24,382 nt of DNA from the IMG/VR virus record IMGVR_UViG_3300042924_004826, positions 1 through 24,382 of that record; one strand, written 5' to 3'. The notes beneath the pieces were generated by a model that did not search any database, was not told the origin of the DNA, and saw only the letters and a program-made list of their open reading frames with translations. Position 1 is the stretch's first letter. Each line of letters begins with the position of its first letter. Positions 1 to 7,552 of this stretch are shown here, piece after piece. The translations under genes were made by a program, and so were the position numbers. This stretch comes from a virus.

Positions 1-142
1 CGCCGCGCTTGCGACCGGGAAACTGCAAGAAGTTGAGCCCTATCCGGGCGAGGGCCTGTGCATCGTCTCGCGTGCCGCGATCGTTGACGTCGCGCCGTGG
101 CCCCATCCGCTCCCTCGCGACGTGCGCTAGTGGTGACGCTAC
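1..142 (+). repeat. Direct repeat, copy 1 (other copy 672-813)
   Basis: Bases 1-142 are the same as 672-813 (offset 671) except for one silent change at 115/786. The repeat covers the 3' end of the small gene and the first 12 bases after its stop; the copies then diverge abruptly (TTGCGG at 143, GCGCTGG at 814). The left limit is hidden by the window edge, so the true unit is longer. Confidence 0.9.
2..130 (+). CDS. 3' end of a duplicated small conserved phage protein (truncated by window edge)
   Basis: An open frame runs from the window edge to TAG at 128-130 and encodes the last 42 residues of the same protein that is complete at 520-801. The nucleotides match 672-801 with a single difference (T at 115, C at 786), which is silent (Pro CCT/CCC). 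The start lies outside the window. The identity continues 12 bases past the stop, so this is a recent duplication of gene plus downstream flank, not two old paralogues. I cannot tell whether the upstream part is intact. The GTG at 130-132 overlaps its TAG and opens the next reading frame. Confidence 0.75.
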   Translation, partial: AALATGKLQEVEPYPGEGLCIVSRAAIVDVAPWPHPLPRDVR

Positions 143-369
143 TTGCGGGGGCGACGCCGCGGTCGCGGTCGTGGTCGGGGCCGCGGTCATGGTCGTGGTC
201 GTGGCCGTGGTCGTGGTCGTGGTCGGGGTCGCGGTCGGGGTCGCGGTCGTGGTTGCGGTCGCGGCCGCGGTCGCGGTCGTGGTCGGGGCCGCGGTCATGT
301 TCGTGGTCGTGGCCGTGGTCGTGGTCGTGGTCGGCGTCGCGGTCGGGGTCGCGGTCGGGGGCAGAATGA
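130..369 (+). CDS. Putative Ser-Trp/Ser-Arg dipeptide-repeat microprotein 1
   Basis: A 79-residue ORF starts with the GTG that overlaps the TAG of the preceding gene (TAGTG) and ends in TGA at 367-369, inside an ATGA. It begins MVTLLAG and is then almost wholly S-W, S-R and S-G dipeptides with a few Pro, Leu and Cys. Three downstream ORFs (801, 953, 1069) share the start pattern M-(V/I)-(T/A)-L-(L/R)-A-G and the same dipeptide composition. An in-frame GTG at 97 is another possible start. No function is recognised. Ser-Arg-rich tracts in other proteins often bind nucleic acid, which is only an analogy here. The GGNCGN array could be translated in other frames (Gly-Arg, or Val-Ala-Gly) or not at all. 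Unlike the later members, no gene start with a clear ribosome-binding site overlaps its stop; the next good start is at 520. Confidence 0.4.
   Translation: MVTLLAGATPRSRSWSGPRSWSWSWPWSWSWSGSRSGSRSWLRSRPRSRSWSGPRSCSWSWPWSWSWSASRSGSRSGAE
155..363 (+). repeat. GGNCGN hexamer array 1
   Basis: About 35 imperfect copies of a six-base unit GG(T/C)CG(T/C/G) run almost without a break. A higher-order repeat lies on top: 161-249 and 269-357 match at an offset of 108 bases (18 units) with two mismatches (192/300 and 227/335). This suggests growth by slippage plus block duplication. Nearly all variation falls on the third and sixth base of the unit. Confidence 0.9.
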
Positions 370-519
370 CCGCGCCGCGGCGGCGCATAGCCCCTGGTCG
401 TGGTCGACGTGGGGAGGCCAGCACTACGCGATGCGCTCAAGCGCTGGCCCGCATCTGTACGCCGGATCGTGGTCCGGCGGGTTTCAAGTGTCAAAGAGCA
501 AAACAACAAAGGAGAGACC
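370..519 (+). other. Spacer between array 1 and the small conserved gene
   Basis: No convincing gene of its own is seen in this 150-base spacer. The last 30 bases are clearly A-rich compared with the surroundings and carry AAAGGAGAG at 508-516, a good ribosome-binding site four bases before the ATG at 520. A promoter may lie here, but I see no clear -35/-10 pair. An ORF from ATG 366 runs through in another frame and then out of frame through the gene at 520; I do not count it as a gene. Confidence 0.5.
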
Positions 520-801
520 ATGATCACCAGCAGCGAGCACCCTTACACCATCGGAGACGCCGTGATCGTTCGCACGGTGACGATGTACTACACGGGCCGA
601 ATTGTCCGCGTATACCCTGGCGAGTTGGTTCTGTCCTGCGCCGCTTGGATCGCGGACACCGGCCGCTGGTCCGCCGCGCTTGCGACCGGGAAACTGCAAG
701 AAGTTGAGCCCTATCCGGGCGAGGGCCTGTGCATCGTCTCGCGTGCCGCGATCGTTGACGTCGCGCCGTGGCCCCATCCGCTCCCCCGCGACGTGCGCTA
801 G
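520..801 (+). CDS. Small conserved phage protein of unknown function (93 aa)
   Basis: The ATG at 520 follows GGAGAG and gives 93 residues, ending TAG 799-801. The protein has alternating hydrophobic strands and conserved-looking blocks: HPYTIGDAVIVRTVTMYYTG, then LVLSCAAWIADTGRW, KLQEVEPYPGEG and IVDVAPWPHPLP. From memory this matches a family of short phage proteins with a 'HPY.IG....IRTVT...TGRL...LVL..AAWIADTGR' pattern, whose function I do not know; this was not searched. The likely all-beta character suggests a small structural or binding protein, not an enzyme. Its 3' end is duplicated at 2-130. The stop overlaps the next start (TAGTG), so it heads the coupled chain that leads to ssb. 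Confidence 0.85.
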   Translation: MITSSEHPYTIGDAVIVRTVTMYYTGRIVRVYPGELVLSCAAWIADTGRWSAALATGKLQEVEPYPGEGLCIVSRAAIVDVAPWPHPLPRDVR

Positions 802-813
802 TGGTGACGCTAC
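672..813 (+). repeat. Direct repeat, copy 2 (other copy 1-142)
   Basis: This is the second copy of the 142-base repeat described at 1-142. It covers the 3' half of the small conserved gene and the first 12 bases downstream. The near-perfect identity in a region otherwise rich in slippage products argues for recent duplication or ongoing gene conversion. Confidence 0.9.
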
Positions 814-956
814 GCGCTGGATTCTGGACTGCGGCGCCGCGGTCGTGGTCGGGGTCGCGGTCGCTGTTGCGGACGTGGTCGCGGTCGTGGTCGCGGTCGC
901 GGTCGCGGTCGGGGTTGCGGTCGGGGTCGGGGTCGGGGTCGGGGGATGCGCCATGA
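801..956 (+). CDS. Putative Ser-Arg/Ser-Gly dipeptide-repeat microprotein 2
   Basis: The GTG at 801 overlaps the TAG of the gene at 520 and opens a 51-residue ORF, MVTLRAGFWT followed by S-W, S-R and S-G dipeptides, ending GDAP and TGA at 954-956. The TGA lies in an ATGA whose ATG (953) starts the next ORF. A GTG at 768 in the same frame is an alternative start inside the previous gene. Relative to microprotein 1 the first codons are the same (MVTL), because the flanking DNA is duplicated, and the body differs. Function is unknown. The C-terminal S-G run is encoded by the G-quadruplex motif at 923-945. Translation has not been shown; the support is the exact stop/start coupling on both sides and the shared N-terminal motif. 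Confidence 0.45.
   Translation: MVTLRAGFWTAAPRSWSGSRSLLRTWSRSWSRSRSRSGLRSGSGSGSGDAP
840..945 (+). repeat. GGNCGN hexamer array 2
   Basis: About 17 units of the GG(T/C)CG(T/C/G) hexamer are interrupted once near 863-875. The last units become homogeneous GGGGTC, which forms the G-run motif listed separately. The array ends at the ATGATC start of microprotein 3. Confidence 0.85.
923..945 (+). promoter_or_regulatory. Canonical G-quadruplex motif over a ribosome-binding site
   Basis: Three GGGGTC units followed by GGGGG give four G-runs of at least four bases with two-base TC loops, a textbook intramolecular G-quadruplex pattern on the plus (coding, mRNA-like) strand. The last run (941-945) is also the only Shine-Dalgarno-like purine run in front of the ATG at 953, at a spacing of seven bases. 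Folding in RNA would hide it, and a ribosome translating the ORF at 801 would open it. Folding and regulation are inference. Confidence 0.55.
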
Positions 957-1072
957 TCGCCCTACGCGCTGGACGAGACGTCTCCGGATCTTGGTCGCGG
1001 TCGTGGTCGGGGTCTTGGTCTTGGTCAAGCTCGCGCCGCCGGTCGCGGTCGTGGTCGGAGGATGCGCCATGA
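953..1072 (+). CDS. Putative Ser-Trp/Ser-Arg dipeptide-repeat microprotein 3
   Basis: The ATG at 953 overlaps the TGA of the previous ORF (ATGA) and gives 39 residues: MIALRAGRDV, a body of S-W, S-R and S-G dipeptides and the ending SEDAP. TGA at 1070-1072 again overlaps the next ATG. The sequence around its start and the start at 1069 is the same 20-base block (953-972 and 1069-1088), so microproteins 3 and 4 arose by duplication of a start cassette. The purine run in front of this start is GGGGG. No known domain is recognised. It could be a non-functional by-product of repeat expansion, but the kept frame, start and stop argue for translation. Confidence 0.45.
   Translation: MIALRAGRDVSGSWSRSWSGSWSWSSSRRRSRSWSEDAP
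991..1061 (+). repeat. GGNCGN hexamer array 3
   Basis: A shorter and more degenerate array lies between the two copies of the 20-base start cassette. It includes GGTCTT units and a non-repeat patch near 1025-1040. It ends in GGAGG, which is the ribosome-binding site for the ATG at 1069. Confidence 0.75.
1057..1061 (+). promoter_or_regulatory. Ribosome-binding site for microprotein 4
   Basis: GGAGG lies seven bases before the ATG at 1069, ideal for a Shine-Dalgarno site. It differs by one base from the GGGGG in the equivalent place before 953 (A at 1059), turning a hexamer-repeat unit into a consensus site. This is one of the better arguments that the ORF at 1069 is translated. Confidence 0.6.
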
Positions 1073-1257
1073 TCGCCCTACGCGCTGGCCGCACCGCCCC
1101 GGGGCCGGAGTCGTGGTCGGGGCCGCGGTCGCGGTCGTGGTCGGGGTTGTGGTCGCGGTCGTGGTCGTGGTCGCGGCCGTGGTCCTCAGCGCGCTCGCGA
1201 CTGTCGCTCACACCTATTAGTCAAGCATTTTGGAATAACAACGGAGAGAACACATGA
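1069..1257 (+). CDS. Putative Ser-Trp/Ser-Arg dipeptide-repeat microprotein 4, coupled to ssb
   Basis: ATG 1069, with GGAGG seven bases upstream, opens 62 residues: MIALRAGRTA, a body of S-W, S-R and S-G dipeptides, then a non-repetitive tail LTPISQAFWNNNGENT. The TGA at 1255-1257 overlaps the ATG of ssb at 1254. The tail is encoded by the A/T-rich stretch with the ssb ribosome-binding site, so it may simply be read-through of a leader. This ORF has the best start signal of the four repeat ORFs. The position directly in front of ssb suggests co-expression with DNA replication or recombination functions. No known family is recognised. Confidence 0.5.
   Translation: MIALRAGRTAPGPESWSGPRSRSWSGLWSRSWSWSRPWSSARSRLSLTPISQAFWNNNGENT
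1108..1186 (+). repeat. GGNCGN hexamer array 4
   Basis: Thirteen or so units of the same hexamer family lie in the body of microprotein 4. The array decays into unique sequence at about 1187. The next 65 bases become A/T-rich and lead to the ssb start. Confidence 0.85.
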
Positions 1258-1607
1258 TCCACTGTACTATCGTCGGTCGTCTCGGGAAAGACGCCCGTGC
1301 CATCCCAGGCGCCACCGGCGGCGCGTCGTTCTCGGTCGCCTGCGACCACGGGTTCGGCGACAAGCGCGTCACCACCTGGGTTGACGTGACCCTCTGGGGT
1401 AAGCGCGGCGCCGGAATGTTGGAACGCGGGCTACTGCCGAAGGGGCAGGTCGTCGCCGTTCGTGGCGAGCTTTGGACCGAAGACCGCGAGGGCAAGACCT
1501 GGGTGAAGGTCAACGCGGACGAGGTCGAGCTGGTCGGTGGCAAGCCGGCCGGCTCGGACGCCGCCCCCGCGCGCAAGCCCGCCGCCGACGATGAGATCCC
1601 TTTCTGA
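1254..1607 (+). CDS. ssb: Single-stranded DNA-binding protein (SSB)
   Basis: The protein has 117 residues. It begins with the OB-fold strand MIHCTIVGRLGKDA, continues with ASFSVACD, the block TWVDVTLWGKRG (residues 41-52), LPKGQVVAVRGEL and WVKVNADEVELV, and ends in a short linker and the acidic tip DDEIPF. The OB fold of roughly 100 residues plus acidic Phe-ended tail is the hallmark of bacterial and phage SSB, which coats single-stranded DNA and recruits partner enzymes through the tip. The linker is very short compared with host SSBs, as is usual for phages. GGAGAG lies seven bases before the ATG. The stop overlaps the following start (TGATG), and the start overlaps the stop of microprotein 4 (ATGA). 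Confidence 0.96.
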   Translation: MIHCTIVGRLGKDARAIPGATGGASFSVACDHGFGDKRVTTWVDVTLWGKRGAGMLERGLLPKGQVVAVRGELWTEDREGKTWVKVNADEVELVGGKPAGSDAAPARKPAADDEIPF

Positions 1608-2623
1608 TGCGCGACGCCATGCTCACAGCCCGCAGCGCGGGCGAAGACTCTCACCAGGTCGCGGCGGACAAGCTCGACGCCGCGATCCGCCTTCGCTTCG
1701 GGTGGCGAGACCGGTGGGAGCTGGACGCCATCGCCCGGTCAGTCGAGGCGCATCGGGCCGGCGTCTTGACCGCGCTCCGCCGGCTACAGACCGCCGGAGC
1801 TTGTGTCCCGGTCGGCGATGTGTGGTGGTCAGTCGCCGCGTTTCGCCGGCAGTTCGGCGAGCCGCCGACTCCGCCGACGCGTCAGGTCGCCGAGATCCCC
1901 GCCCCTCCCGGGCGACGGAAGGTCGTCACGCCAGCCGCCGCCGCCGAGCCCGCGCCGACGACGTGGCCACCTGCACCGGAGCGGGCACCGGCACCGGAGA
2001 GGCCGACGGCACCGACGCCGAAGCCGGCACCGACGCCCAAGCCCAAGCCGCCGCCCGAGCCCGAGTCGCCCGCGCCGCCGTCGACCGACGGGCCGCCAGA
2101 TCCCGGACTCGGTCGCCGTATCGTCGCCTGGGTGCTGGCCCAGCCCGAGCCCGTGACGATCGCGCAGATCGCCGCCGGCCTTACCGTCAGTCGCGACCGC
2201 GTCGCCCGTGAGATTGCACGGCCTTCAGCGGCGAGAATGATCGGTAAGAGCGGCACAAAACGGAACCCGTGGGACCCCGCGTCGGGCTTCCGGTACTGGC
2301 GACCGACGCCCGAAGACCTGCCCGCGGCCGTCCCGCTTGCCGAAGCCCAGGCCGAGATCAAGCGCGGGACGCGCCACCTCGTCGCCGGGACCGCGGATCC
2401 CGCGATGCTCGCGGCCATCGCCCGACACCCAGGGCAGGGCGTCGATTGCCTACCGACGTCGATGGACGTCTGGTGGGCGCCGGACTCCTACGGTGGACTG
2501 CGCCTCCGGGTGCAGCTGTCGTCGCCGACGACTCCGCCGACCGCCGTCCGCATCATCGCGCAGGTTCCGATCTTGGCGCCGCGCACCGTCGTTGACCTGA
2601 CTATCCGAGAGGAGCAAGCGTGA
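1607..2623 (+). CDS. Pro-rich protein with two winged-helix-like segments, function unknown
   Basis: The protein has 338 residues. Residues 36-80 look like a helix-turn-helix with a following wing (LDAIARSVEAHRAGVLTALRRL, then CVPVGDVWWS). Residues 85-165 are a Pro/Ala/Lys-Pro linker that contains PTPKPAPTPKPKPPPEPE. Residues 168-232 hold a second winged helix (IVAWVLAQPEPVTIAQIAA, SRDRVAREIA, ending in the wing GFRYWRP). Residues 240-338 form a further globular domain with strand-like segments. Such a layout suggests a DNA-binding protein, for example a replication initiator, a loader or a regulator, and the position between ssb and an exonuclease fits replication. No catalytic motif is seen. 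The start overlaps the ssb stop, and its own TGA overlaps the next start (GTGA). Confidence 0.8.
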   Translation: MRDAMLTARSAGEDSHQVAADKLDAAIRLRFGWRDRWELDAIARSVEAHRAGVLTALRRLQTAGACVPVGDVWWSVAAFRRQFGEPPTPPTRQVAEIPAPPGRRKVVTPAAAAEPAPTTWPPAPERAPAPERPTAPTPKPAPTPKPKPPPEPESPAPPSTDGPPDPGLGRRIVAWVLAQPEPVTIAQIAAGLTVSRDRVAREIARPSAARMIGKSGTKRNPWDPASGFRYWRPTPEDLPAAVPLAEAQAEIKRGTRHLVAGTADPAMLAAIARHPGQGVDCLPTSMDVWWAPDSYGGLRLRVQLSSPTTPPTAVRIIAQVPILAPRTVVDLTIREEQA

Positions 2624-3351
2624 GCACGATCTATCTTGATATCGAGACCGTCCCCGTGGACGCCCGCCCTGGCATGACAGAGCCCCCCGGGCGATGGATG
2701 GCCCGTGCCCCTGACGAGGTCAAGCGCCTGAAGGCTGACTCTGACGCCGACTTTGCCACGAAGTGCGCCGACTGGGCGCGCGAGCAGTGGCAGAAGGAGA
2801 GCCTCGACCCAGTCGGACGGGCGCCTGCGATCGGCGGTCGCGTGCTGGCGATCGGCGTGCAGTCGGGCGACGACGACGTCACGGCCTGGACGTCCTACAT
2901 CGAAGGCGACGTCCTGACGGAGCTTGAGACGTACCTCGACGGCCATTGCGGGCGACACTGCCAGATCGTGGGGCACAATATCCGCGGCTTTGACGCGCCC
3001 TTTCTGGCGGCCCGTGCGCTACGTAGCCCGACGAAGTACCCCTTGATCCTTCGCGCCTTCATGCCTCGCGACCGTTGGGGCCCCGGCCCGCACATCGTCG
3101 ACACGATGCAGCTGATCCCCGTGCCGTCGTACGGTGGACGCCCGACCGGTACCTCGCGGCTGTCCGACTGGGTGTCGTACCTTGACCAGGCCGTGGCCGA
3201 AGATCAGATCGACGGCTCCCAGGTGCTCGGCCGGTACCTCGCCGGCGACCTGGAGGCGATCGTGCGCCACCTCATCGCCGACGTGCAAGAGGTCCGCATC
3301 CTACATCGTCTTGTCGAGGCCGCTCGAGGTCAGGGCCGCCAGGTCGAGTAA
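2620..3351 (+). CDS. DEDD-family 3'-5' exonuclease (PolB exonuclease-domain-like)
   Basis: The protein has 243 residues and starts at GTG 2620, with GAGAGGAG upstream. Exo I is YLDIETVP, giving acids D7 and E9. Exo II is VGHNIRGFDAPFLAARAL with D125. Exo III is RHLIADVQEV with D221. These four acids hold the two metal ions of DEDD exonucleases, which remove nucleotides from 3' ends. The overall form resembles the stand-alone 'PolB exonuclease-like' phage proteins. In that group exo III is normally YxxxD; here the residue four before D221 is His (H217). Role: proofreading or recombination processing next to SSB. Its 3' end overlaps the convergent endolysin gene by 22 bases. The assignment of family is firm; the substrate is inferred. 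Confidence 0.88.
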   Translation: MSTIYLDIETVPVDARPGMTEPPGRWMARAPDEVKRLKADSDADFATKCADWAREQWQKESLDPVGRAPAIGGRVLAIGVQSGDDDVTAWTSYIEGDVLTELETYLDGHCGRHCQIVGHNIRGFDAPFLAARALRSPTKYPLILRAFMPRDRWGPGPHIVDTMQLIPVPSYGGRPTGTSRLSDWVSYLDQAVAEDQIDGSQVLGRYLAGDLEAIVRHLIADVQEVRILHRLVEAARGQGRQVE

Positions 3352-3788
3352 GGCCCGCCCGAGCCCGAAGGCGCGGACGATCGTAGCAGGTCGCCCCGCG
3401 CCTTCGCCGCTCCCCTGGGATGGCCCAGGTGCAGGAAGTTGCCCGACGGGTAGACGATGGCCTGATCCAAGGTGGGCAACTGCCCCGCCCGATGCGCCTC
3501 ATAGATCGCGCGCATCGCCGACTCCACCGGGATCCCCACCGGGACCAGGTCGACCGCGTCGCCCGTCAGGTGGGCGGACGAGGACGAGCCGCGCACCGCG
3601 AGGTTGACCCCCGGGCTCCGGTATGCCGAGGTGATGCGGAGCGGGACGCCGAGGATCGCGCGCACCGGCTCCAGGAGACCGTGGGCGAGGGCCTGCAGTC
3701 TCGCAAGCTCCACCGGGCCGGGGATGTTCTCAAGGCCCGTGCTGGTTTGGGTGAGTTCTTGCAGCGTAAAGTTAGGGGAAAGCTTCAC
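3330..3788 (-). CDS. Endolysin, peptidase M15 family (zinc D,D-/L,D-peptidase type)
   Basis: The protein has 152 residues from the GTG at 3788, chosen because it overlaps the TGA of the upstream gene (GTGA). Residues 1-15, MKLSPNFTLQELTQT, are the typical opening of short M15 peptidases. Residues 54-58 (SAYRS) and SSAHLTGDAVD (71-80) carry the zinc ligands H73 and D80, and FLHLGH (118-123) supplies the third ligand, H120 or H123. The enzyme cuts peptide bridges in peptidoglycan to release progeny. No signal peptide is seen, so it needs the holin. It is the last gene of the late operon, directly after the holin-like gene. A frame extending to 3866 is a shadow of the upstream gene. Confidence 0.9.
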   Translation of the reverse strand: MKLSPNFTLQELTQTSTGLENIPGPVELARLQALAHGLLEPVRAILGVPLRITSAYRSPGVNLAVRGSSSSAHLTGDAVDLVPVGIPVESAMRAIYEAHRAGQLPTLDQAIVYPSGNFLHLGHPRGAAKARGDLLRSSAPSGSGGPYSTWRP

Positions 3789-5605: not shown

Positions 5606-7552
5606 TCAAACCCCAGTAAGCCAAGCGGCCGAGACCGCCTGCGATGTGGTGATACCCGAGCCGCCGCCCCCGGGCGGTACCGCCCAGGTCTGATCGCCGC
5701 GAAGGTAGGTCGACGCGCTCGCCGTGCCGCTCGCCAGTCGCGCGGTCCCGACCGTGCCAGAGGTCAGGTCCGACGCGCTCGCCGAGGATGCGATCGTCGC
5801 CAGTCCGAGCGTGGTCCGCTGTGCCGCCGCGTCGACGTCGTCCAGGATGGCGCGACCGGCCGCGGTACAGGCGATCTCCTCGACGGAGCCGGCGCCCGCG
5901 GTGGACCGTCCAAGCAGGCGGTCGGTGGCGCTGACGTTCTGGATCTTCGCGTACGTGACGACACCGGCGTCAATCGTCCACACCGTCCCCGAGCTGCTGA
6001 CGGTGATGTCGCCCTTGTCGCCGTCGGTGACGCCACCCGAGGAAGGAGCCGCCCAGCTCCCGTCGGCGCGGAGGAAGTTGGTCGTTCCGCCGCCAGAAGC
6101 GGGGGCCAGTCCTTTGAGAGTCGATGTGAAAGCGTCGAGAAGCGTCGTCGCCTGGGTGCCGGTCAACGACTCGACGTTACCCGTGGCGGCGGTGACGCGT
6201 CCGAGAATCCGGGCGGTGGAGATCGTCGCGAGGTTCGACAGCGCGACCGTGTTCGTCGCGAGCTCCGCCCCCGTGACCAAGGTGCCGACCGACCACGTGT
6301 TGGCGCCCGTGCGGCGTGCGATACCCGTCCCGGACAGCGCCGCGATCGCGGTCAAGTCGGCGTCGGACGCCTGCGCTCCCACGTCCGAGGCCGTGATCCC
6401 TGACCAGGTCTGATCGCCGCGAAGGTAGGTCGACGCGCTCGCCGTGCCGCTCGCCAGTCGCGCGGTCCCGACCGTGCCAGAGGTCAGGTCCGACGCCGAC
6501 CCGCTCGACGCGATAGCCGCGAGTCCGAGCGTGGTCCGAGCCGCGCTTGCGTCGACGTCGTCAACAAGCGAGGCGCCGAACGCCGAGATCCCGTGAACGC
6601 CAGAGGTGAGCGCCGCATGAGTCGAGACGGCGGAGGCGGCAGTCCCAGCCGGATCGGCGCCCACCTGGGCTGCGGTCGTCGCGTGGGGGTTCGACGTCGA
6701 AGCGACGTGCGACGCAACGTTCGACGCCGTCACGCCACCGACCGCGTCGACGGTCCAGGTCGCGCCCGAGCCCGAGACGGTGACGTCGCCCTTGTCACCG
6801 TCCGTCACGCCGCCCGCGCTCACCGTCGCCCAGGTGCTATCGCCGCGCAGATACGTGGTCGCGTCCGCCGTGCCGGTCCCCAAGCGTACCGCGGGAACCA
6901 AGTTCTGGACGTCATTCGTACGGCCCGGCCCCATCACGAGGATCTCGCCGGTCGACGCCTGGACGCGGACCACGCGGCCGATGTTTTGGACCAGCTCCGT
7001 GGTCCCGGTCGGTCGGGTGCCGGTCAGCCCGCCGCCGACGGCGACAAAGACCACACCGTTGATCGGATAGGCGGACGTGTCGAGCGACCGCACGATCCCA
7101 AGCGAAGTGGCGAACCCCTGCCCGTTCTGCGCAAGGGTCGCCTCCAGAAGCCCGATCGCCGGCATCTTCGCCGCGTTTCCGGCGTCCGCCGCCGCCACCT
7201 CGGTGGCGCCCGACGCGCCGACCGACCCCGTCGCATACACCGGGGTGCCGGCGAGAAGCTGGCCGCCGCTCGTGTTCTTGACCGCGAAGCGGACCGCCTC
7301 GATGTGCGCGTACGTCTGATCGCCGCGCAGGAAGGTCGAGTTGTCCGCGGTCCCAGTCCCGAGCCGAGCGGTGGCCACTGGGCTGTCGAGCGTCCACACC
7401 GTGCCGCCGCTCGAGACGGTGATGTCGCCCCGGTCACCGTCCGCGACCAGCGCGGCACCGGAGCCGACGGCGCCCGAGCGCAGTCGAATCGTGTACACGC
7501 GCGGCCCGCCGACCGTGTAGACCCGCGGTGTGAGGCGGATCGTCACGTCCAC
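5606..7552 (-). CDS. Repetitive tail fibre protein
   Basis: The protein has 648 residues from a GTG at 7552 that overlaps the end of the preceding gene. Several modules recur: TARLGTGTAD near 61 and VRLGTGTAD near 222; GVTDGDKGD(V/I)TVS at 248 and 507; DDVDA..RTTLGLA at 331 and 571; a block ending STYLRGDQTW at 349-383 and 589-623 (period 240). NPHATTAAQVG (288-298) is the NPH..T..QVG motif seen in many long tail fibres. Such repeats make trimeric beta-helical shafts; the end that binds the host is normally C-terminal, here unusually short and Gly-rich. No chaperone domain is seen. The DNA copy of one module is exactly repeated. Confidence 0.88.
   Translation of the reverse strand: MDVTIRLTPRVYTVGGPRVYTIRLRSGAVGSGAALVADGDRGDITVSSGGTVWTLDSPVATARLGTGTADNSTFLRGDQTYAHIEAVRFAVKNTSGGQLLAGTPVYATGSVGASGATEVAAADAGNAAKMPAIGLLEATLAQNGQGFATSLGIVRSLDTSAYPINGVVFVAVGGGLTGTRPTGTTELVQNIGRVVRVQASTGEILVMGPGRTNDVQNLVPAVRLGTGTADATTYLRGDSTWATVSAGGVTDGDKGDVTVSGSGATWTVDAVGGVTASNVASHVASTSNPHATTAAQVGADPAGTAASAVSTHAALTSGVHGISAFGASLVDDVDASAARTTLGLAAIASSGSASDLTSGTVGTARLASGTASASTYLRGDQTWSGITASDVGAQASDADLTAIAALSGTGIARRTGANTWSVGTLVTGAELATNTVALSNLATISTARILGRVTAATGNVESLTGTQATTLLDAFTSTLKGLAPASGGGTTNFLRADGSWAAPSSGGVTDGDKGDITVSSSGTVWTIDAGVVTYAKIQNVSATDRLLGRSTAGAGSVEEIACTAAGRAILDDVDAAAQRTTLGLATIASSASASDLTSGTVGTARLASGTASASTYLRGDQTWAVPPGGGGSGITTSQAVSAAWLTGV
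5684..5776. repeat. 93-base perfect direct repeat in the fibre gene, copy 1
   Basis: Bases 5684-5776 and 6404-6496 are identical over 93 positions at an offset of exactly 720 bases (240 codons), so recombination between them would remove or add a module in frame. Similarity continues beyond at lower identity. The perfect identity at wobble positions marks a recent duplication or gene conversion. Confidence 0.92.
6404..6496. repeat. 93-base perfect direct repeat in the fibre gene, copy 2
   Basis: This is the partner of 5684-5776. It encodes the first occurrence, in protein order, of the module ending LRGDQTW (residues 353-383). Confidence 0.92.

Follow-up and report, generated by a model that had tools for sequence, protein, structure and literature searches.

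Near the start of the virus record analysed here, four short open reading frames (ORFs) are carried by hexamer arrays and encode, behind a short head, Ser-X dipeptides in which X is Trp, Arg or Gly. Are these ORFs genes, or by-products of a DNA repeat? The window, that is the whole stretch of 24,382 bases under analysis, is linear and probably a fragment. All four ORFs were found and read as a preliminary description of this DNA had given them, two ending in DAP. On the plus strand, microprotein 1 (130..369, 79 aa, array 161-357) begins with VVTLLAGATPRSRSWSG, microprotein 2 (801..956, 51 aa, array 838-941) with VVTLRAGFWTAAPRSWSG, microprotein 3 (953..1072, 39 aa) with MIALRAGRDVSGSWSR and microprotein 4 (1069..1257, 62 aa, array 1110-1184) with MIALRAGRTAPG; the second ends in DAP and the third in EDAP, and the TRF scores of the window arrays are 205, 124 and 87. 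Microproteins 1 and 2 have GTG starts that overlap the TAG of the gene upstream, and ATGA overlaps join 2 to 3 (953-956), 3 to 4 (1069-1072) and 4 to ssb (1254-1257), the gene for a single-strand DNA-binding protein (1254..1607, plus strand; PF00436, E 1.2e-07; phrog_44, E 1e-16). The length of these ORFs is no evidence by itself because the GGTCGN repeat is almost stop-free in all six frames. What is not due to chance is the set of start/stop overlaps together with the recurrence of the same arrangement in unrelated phages.

The TAG overlapped by microprotein 2 belongs to a gene of the 'AWIADTG' family, hereafter the partner gene (526..801, plus strand), the product of which has a predicted Sm/LSm-like fold. 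It has a candidate ATG at 520, and its aligned product (523-801, 92 aa) begins with ITSSEHPYTIGDAV. The ORF in front of it (431..523, plus strand) encodes a non-repetitive Ser/Gly/Trp-rich microprotein, MRSSAGPHLYAGSWSGGFQVSKSKTTKERP, whose TGA overlaps an ATG at the partner gene start. A homologue of this microprotein lies at 2292-2384 of another phage (L009), with 8 of 13 differences at codon position 3, and in both phages its stop overlaps the next start. Microprotein 1 overlaps a copy of the partner gene (1..130, plus strand; a duplicated 3′ end, near-identical to 672-801) that is cut by the contig start. When 1-142 is compared with 672-813, the partner 3′ end proves to be duplicated almost exactly, and the arrays behind the two copies differ. 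No promoter- or terminator-like site was found in window 1-1700.

Relatives of the partner gene allowed us to look at the same locus in other phages. A Ser-X hexamer array follows the partner in all of the first nine relatives (48-85% identity). An alignment of nine sequences retrieved 283 relatives from viral contigs, and the best 80 of them were used; further relatives are present on 8 contigs of metagenome-assembled bacterial or archaeal genomes. In a phage collection of 50,697 records, the environmental genome MW202573 holds the only main-type relative and another environmental genome, MW202825, which carries a divergent partner type, the only other one; a search of plasmids returned no partner relative. 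We then examined 69 distinct partner loci whose tail measured 250 bases or more, and found arrays within 900 nt in 60 of them, at a median distance of 32.5 nt after the partner stop. All 60 arrays have an ATG or GTG in the Ser frame after the partner end, compared with 17 of 120 in the other two frames, and a Shine-Dalgarno-like site precedes 20 of the 60 array starts versus 17 of 244 background ATGs. Among the nine loci without a clean array, two (L066 and L058) have Ser-X-rich ORFs of mixed codons, one (L059) has three Ser/Tyr/Arg/His-rich ORFs and one (L034) keeps the head MSAAVLRAGYDRA without the repeat.

The reverse search, in which viral contigs were scanned for arrays alone and neighbours were ignored, gave at least 52 clean arrays that had nine units or more and were preceded by 450 b or more of sequence. 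Among the arrays listed, 41 of 52 have the partner at most 1.5 kb upstream on the same strand; in three other cases (L250, L269, L300) it lies just downstream, and one array (L306) shares its contig with L096, which has a partner. With 283 partner stretches in 2.9 million contigs, the pairing of array and partner is far from chance. The constant neighbour of the arrays is thus the gene just upstream (window 526-801) and not ssb. The preliminary description had taken production with SSB as the defining link, which is not supported: ssb follows the array in the window, where it adjoins it, and in L009, while the gene downstream of the array differs between phages. Other neighbours include RecT/Bet/Erf annealing proteins, exonuclease VIII, RecE-type exonucleases, NinB, a Holliday resolvase and a helicase, counted as present rather than as enriched.

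It is well supported that the four ORFs of the window belong to a microprotein family widespread among phages. Its typical member has the head M-N-A-A-I-L-R-x-G-[FY]-[DE], more generally M-[NT]-[AQ]-A-[IVL]-L-R-x-G-[FY]-[DE], followed by (Ser-[Trp/Arg/Gly])n, with X occasionally K, Q, L or M. The proposal of a microprotein family with a common start and a fixed reading phase holds across related phages, where arrays of different length retain the same frame, start and stop. Several tandem copies occur in some phages (L049, L054, MRYLFEGS heads behind a GGAGATAAGG site), and there are further head types (SKQKYR-, N-x-N-T-type). Divergent partners (L227, L230, L237, L263, L264, L267, L291, L293), 16-24% identical to the window partner, have loci with non-canonical microprotein heads, for example MRASKQKYR or MNVNTARGRYRR, which suggests that partner type and head type are inherited together. 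The array ORF of MW202573, which reads MNAAIIRAGLDASWSWSWSWSRSRSW..., bears the annotation 'hypothetical protein'. Pfam gave no domain in the four window microproteins and PHROGs gave one match (E 0.074); in the open-access literature on phage dipeptide repeats, DUF6948 and phage Sm-like proteins, we found no description of the family. Hundreds of uncultivated phages thus have a gene pair of Ser-X microprotein and predicted Sm-like protein that appears not to have been described.

The arrays show clear protein-level selection on the reading frame, the start and the Ser-[Trp/Arg/Gly] pattern. Different arrays write serine with different codons: TCG 118, AGC 28, TCT 6 and TCA 4, where the array scans have inflated the figures for TCG and AGC, or TCG 47, AGC 13, TCT 5 and TCA 3 in the partner-derived arrays alone. 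On the partner tree (84 columns, many forks unresolved) this corresponds to at least 18 switches of Ser codon, at least 12 of them between TCN and AGY, and supported sister pairs differ (L090 AGC and L095 TCT, L067 TCG and L091 AGC, L036 AGC and L101 TCA). TCG and AGC have no base in common at any position, and their exchange alters the meaning of the other frames, from RG or VV to AG or LE; thus, only the Ser-X peptide is kept. Alternating serine is a feature of all 60 arrays, though L028 shows it only in part. Differences in the head fall 59, 45 and 135 times on codon positions 1, 2 and 3. The G>A change in the second or third base of X that would make a stop was seen in none of 1104 TGG units, against 88 of 2220 other units (P-value 1.4e-15); units are not fully independent, and the changes are spread over many loci (CAG 15, GGA 9 and AAG 8 loci). 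The change GGG>GAG, which gives Glu, occurred once, compared with 59 cases of CGG/AGG>CAG/AAG and 14 of the silent GGG>GGA. Glu is avoided in the tail, which has almost no acidic residues.

These results bear on two explanations in which the peptide itself would not matter. One holds that the arrays are a DNA or RNA repeat element (an origin, a recombination hotspot or an RNA platform for an Sm-like ring) with incidental ORFs; the arrays are hexamers, mostly with NGG, next to recombination genes, and repeats would be a plausible target if the Sm-like protein formed an RNA-binding ring. Yet alternating serine is kept although as many as three bases of the hexamer differ from phage to phage (TCG/AGC), stops and Glu are avoided, and three loci (L066, L058, L034) keep a Ser-rich peptide or a head without a clean array, so that we regard a repeat element as very improbable. 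An RNA element was also rejected directly: the predicted fold of 801-956 is no better than that of shuffled sequences (z -0.04), and Rfam has no match in window 1-3400. The other explanation treats the ORFs as leader or coupling ORFs, translation through the array regulating the next gene, here ssb. The ATGA overlaps into ssb in the window and the homologous overlap in L009 are what would be expected of it; the same fold score, the variable downstream gene, and the need for a functional peptide implied by Ser-X kept despite different codons, by Glu avoidance and by head conservation all argue against it and leave it improbable.

A simpler alternative offered in the preliminary description was that the shared starts had been copied along with the repeats. 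Locally this stands, for window copies 3 and 4 only. Across phages it fails because the head is conserved with mostly third-position differences, because arrays have been rebuilt with different Ser codons, and because L034 has the head and no array.

What is held constant in the tail seems to be composition rather than order. Over 120 arrays, X is Trp, Arg and Gly at 0.318, 0.356 and 0.325, with a spread near binomial, and the median net charge is +9. The order of the three is near random, 15.5% of 103 arrays exceeding shuffles in internal repetition at P-value < 0.05. Single-base deviants from the Ser codon within an array show no synonymous bias (31 of 106 synonymous); individual residues are therefore weakly constrained. 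Arrays seem to arise through the shuffling of three unit types at maintained composition rather than by point mutation. Of 110 arrays, 67 use only CGG for Arg, 32 only AGG and 11 both; point mutation and plain drift both fail to account for this pattern. This use of one Arg codon per array (99 of 110) also led us to reject random base hypermutation and, together with a variable base that uses three of the four letters, speaks against the target of a diversity-generating retroelement. A CRISPR-PAM decoy was rejected by reasoning, as NGG follows from the single Trp codon.

The nature of the partner protein was approached by structure prediction. AlphaFold2 with nine partner sequences gave a single-chain model with pLDDT 87.3 and pTM 0.78, which has the bent five-stranded barrel of the Sm fold. 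Nearly all of the top 50 Foldseek matches in the PDB are Sm/LSm chains (probability 1.00, best E 1.6e-3), and the match to 1i8f_C has a TM-score of 0.80 on the target and an rmsd of 1.4. Among viral models (BFVD), the matches include DUF6948 phage proteins, a Gordonia phage 'RNA binding protein' and a 'Sm-like domain' protein. In profile comparisons, Pfam LSM reached E 0.042 in one of the nine members, hhalign placed the partner TGR...LVL.AAWIAD in register with Sm1 at a probability of only 0.4%, and the partner consensus RGAIV resembles Sm2. A PDB profile search gave no LSm match, and searches of Pfam, PHROG and NCBIfam nothing below E 0.02. We call the partner putatively 'Sm-like in fold', and not a proven member of the Sm family, because sequence methods do not confirm homology.

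How the two products might work together can be outlined from these properties. The tail is lengthened, shortened and rebuilt by repeat turnover, which keeps about equal thirds of Trp, Arg and Gly and no stops. It would be an intrinsically disordered cationic chain, with Trp and Arg as 'stickers' and Ser and Gly as 'spacers'. Translational coupling would match the microprotein to the Sm-like protein in site and amount of synthesis; for that protein it may act as a low-complexity tail supplied as a separate chain. Such a tail could bind and concentrate phage RNA or single-stranded DNA near the recombination and replication machinery, which would comprise the nearby ssb, RecT/Bet/Erf and exonucleases. 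The chances seem to us evenly balanced that a disordered cationic chain serves as the separate tail of the Sm-like protein and binds phage nucleic acid near recombination and replication genes. The wider reading is possible but rather doubtful: a two-gene ribonucleoprotein system in which an Sm-like ring and separate repeat-born tails would condense together on phage RNA or single-stranded DNA, the peptide being selected for composition, not sequence, and repeatedly rebuilt from new DNA. Binding of nucleic acid, already suggested in the preliminary description, becomes more plausible with an Sm-fold partner and the avoidance of acidic residues. AlphaFold2 gave no confident structure for the microprotein chain, and a read-through fusion of partner and microprotein, modelled with five sequences (L022 and four others), gave neither a confident head or tail structure nor docking; this model neither supports nor excludes direct docking on the predicted Sm-like domain.

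The same charge and composition could serve other ends. A protamine-like, DNA-condensing chain might coat or compact phage DNA, or occupy host DNA, with the Sm-like neighbour only a co-expressed early gene. The median charge of +9, Trp able to stack on bases, the near lack of acidic residues and the position of arrays beside ssb and annealing proteins would fit; it leaves unexplained why array and Sm-like gene are so tightly paired whichever of them the search starts from, and the conserved head suggests a specific partner, which makes this explanation unlikely. A cationic, antimicrobial-like membrane peptide that aids lysis or excludes rival phages would likewise account for Trp and Arg content and net positive charge. 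However, inspection revealed neither a signal nor a membrane segment, Ser strictly occupies every second position of the tail, unlike the usual amphipathic pattern, and the gene sits among replication and recombination genes, not lysis genes; we give this idea little chance.

Several known systems resemble the phage pair in part. Eukaryotic SmB/D1/D3, LSm4 and LSm14 are Sm/LSm proteins with low-complexity tails. The phage pair likewise combines an Sm-fold core, here predicted, with an Arg-rich disordered partner sequence; it differs in that the tail is encoded in trans, is made of Ser-Trp/Arg/Gly and not RG/RGG, and in that the likeness of the core comes from fold prediction. The Ser-Arg dipeptide tract recalls the RS domain of SR splicing factors, and the best phmmer match of the microprotein in the PDB is SRSF1 (4c0o, E 0.027), a compositional one; unlike SR proteins, the microprotein has no RRM, comes from a prokaryotic virus, and carries Trp at a third of its X positions and Gly at another third. 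Phage Sm-like/DUF6948 proteins in BFVD resemble the partner in predicted fold but share only about 6-23% identity with it, and we found no known association of theirs with a Ser-X microprotein.

The closest published case is that of the Borg aaTR Sm ribonucleoproteins. In Borg elements, tandem repeats give rise to disordered extensions at the N-terminus of Sm proteins, the repeat being fused in 5 of 19 proteins, with units of 4-17 residues and Trp almost absent (PMC9879509). In both systems fast-evolving repeats of a mobile element yield a disordered peptide tied to an Sm protein, and similar amino-acid character arises from unrelated DNA repeats (PMC9879509). In contrast to Borgs, the phage repeat was a separate, overlapping or adjacent ORF in the loci examined, and not a fusion; it is built of Ser-X dipeptides in which Trp fills about a third of the X positions, and it is paired with the Sm-like gene almost universally.

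The family offers a clear natural case of selection on low-complexity protein composition, in which the DNA repeat is replaced and the dipeptide grammar kept. Through its composition of stickers (Trp/Arg) and spacers (Ser/Gly), hypotheses on disordered proteins can be put directly to the test in a small phage system. The family also ties a dedicated disordered chain to a putative Sm-like protein encoded by bacterial viruses. Repeats that are usually written off as junk, or hidden by low-complexity masking, can turn out to be conserved genes, an example being the deposited record MW202825, which leaves its arrays mostly, and most of the array region, unannotated. In this record (MW202825.1, our L347, flagged UNVERIFIED_CONTAM), an apparent Illumina adapter (agatcggaagagcgtcgtgtagggaaagagtgt) follows the arrays at about 3125-3159.

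Two further observations concern the window itself. Its stretch from about 78 to 255, comprising the partner 3′ end and the start of the copy 1 array, is about one base apart from 6214-6390 of a 108-kb contig (L010) whose partner protein is only 80% identical to that of the window; near-identity of this stretch despite the divergence of the partners points to recent recombination at the site. The gene after ssb (1607-2623) has weak HTH matches and contains a Pro/Ala-rich linker with 18-base tandem repeats (1965-2070).
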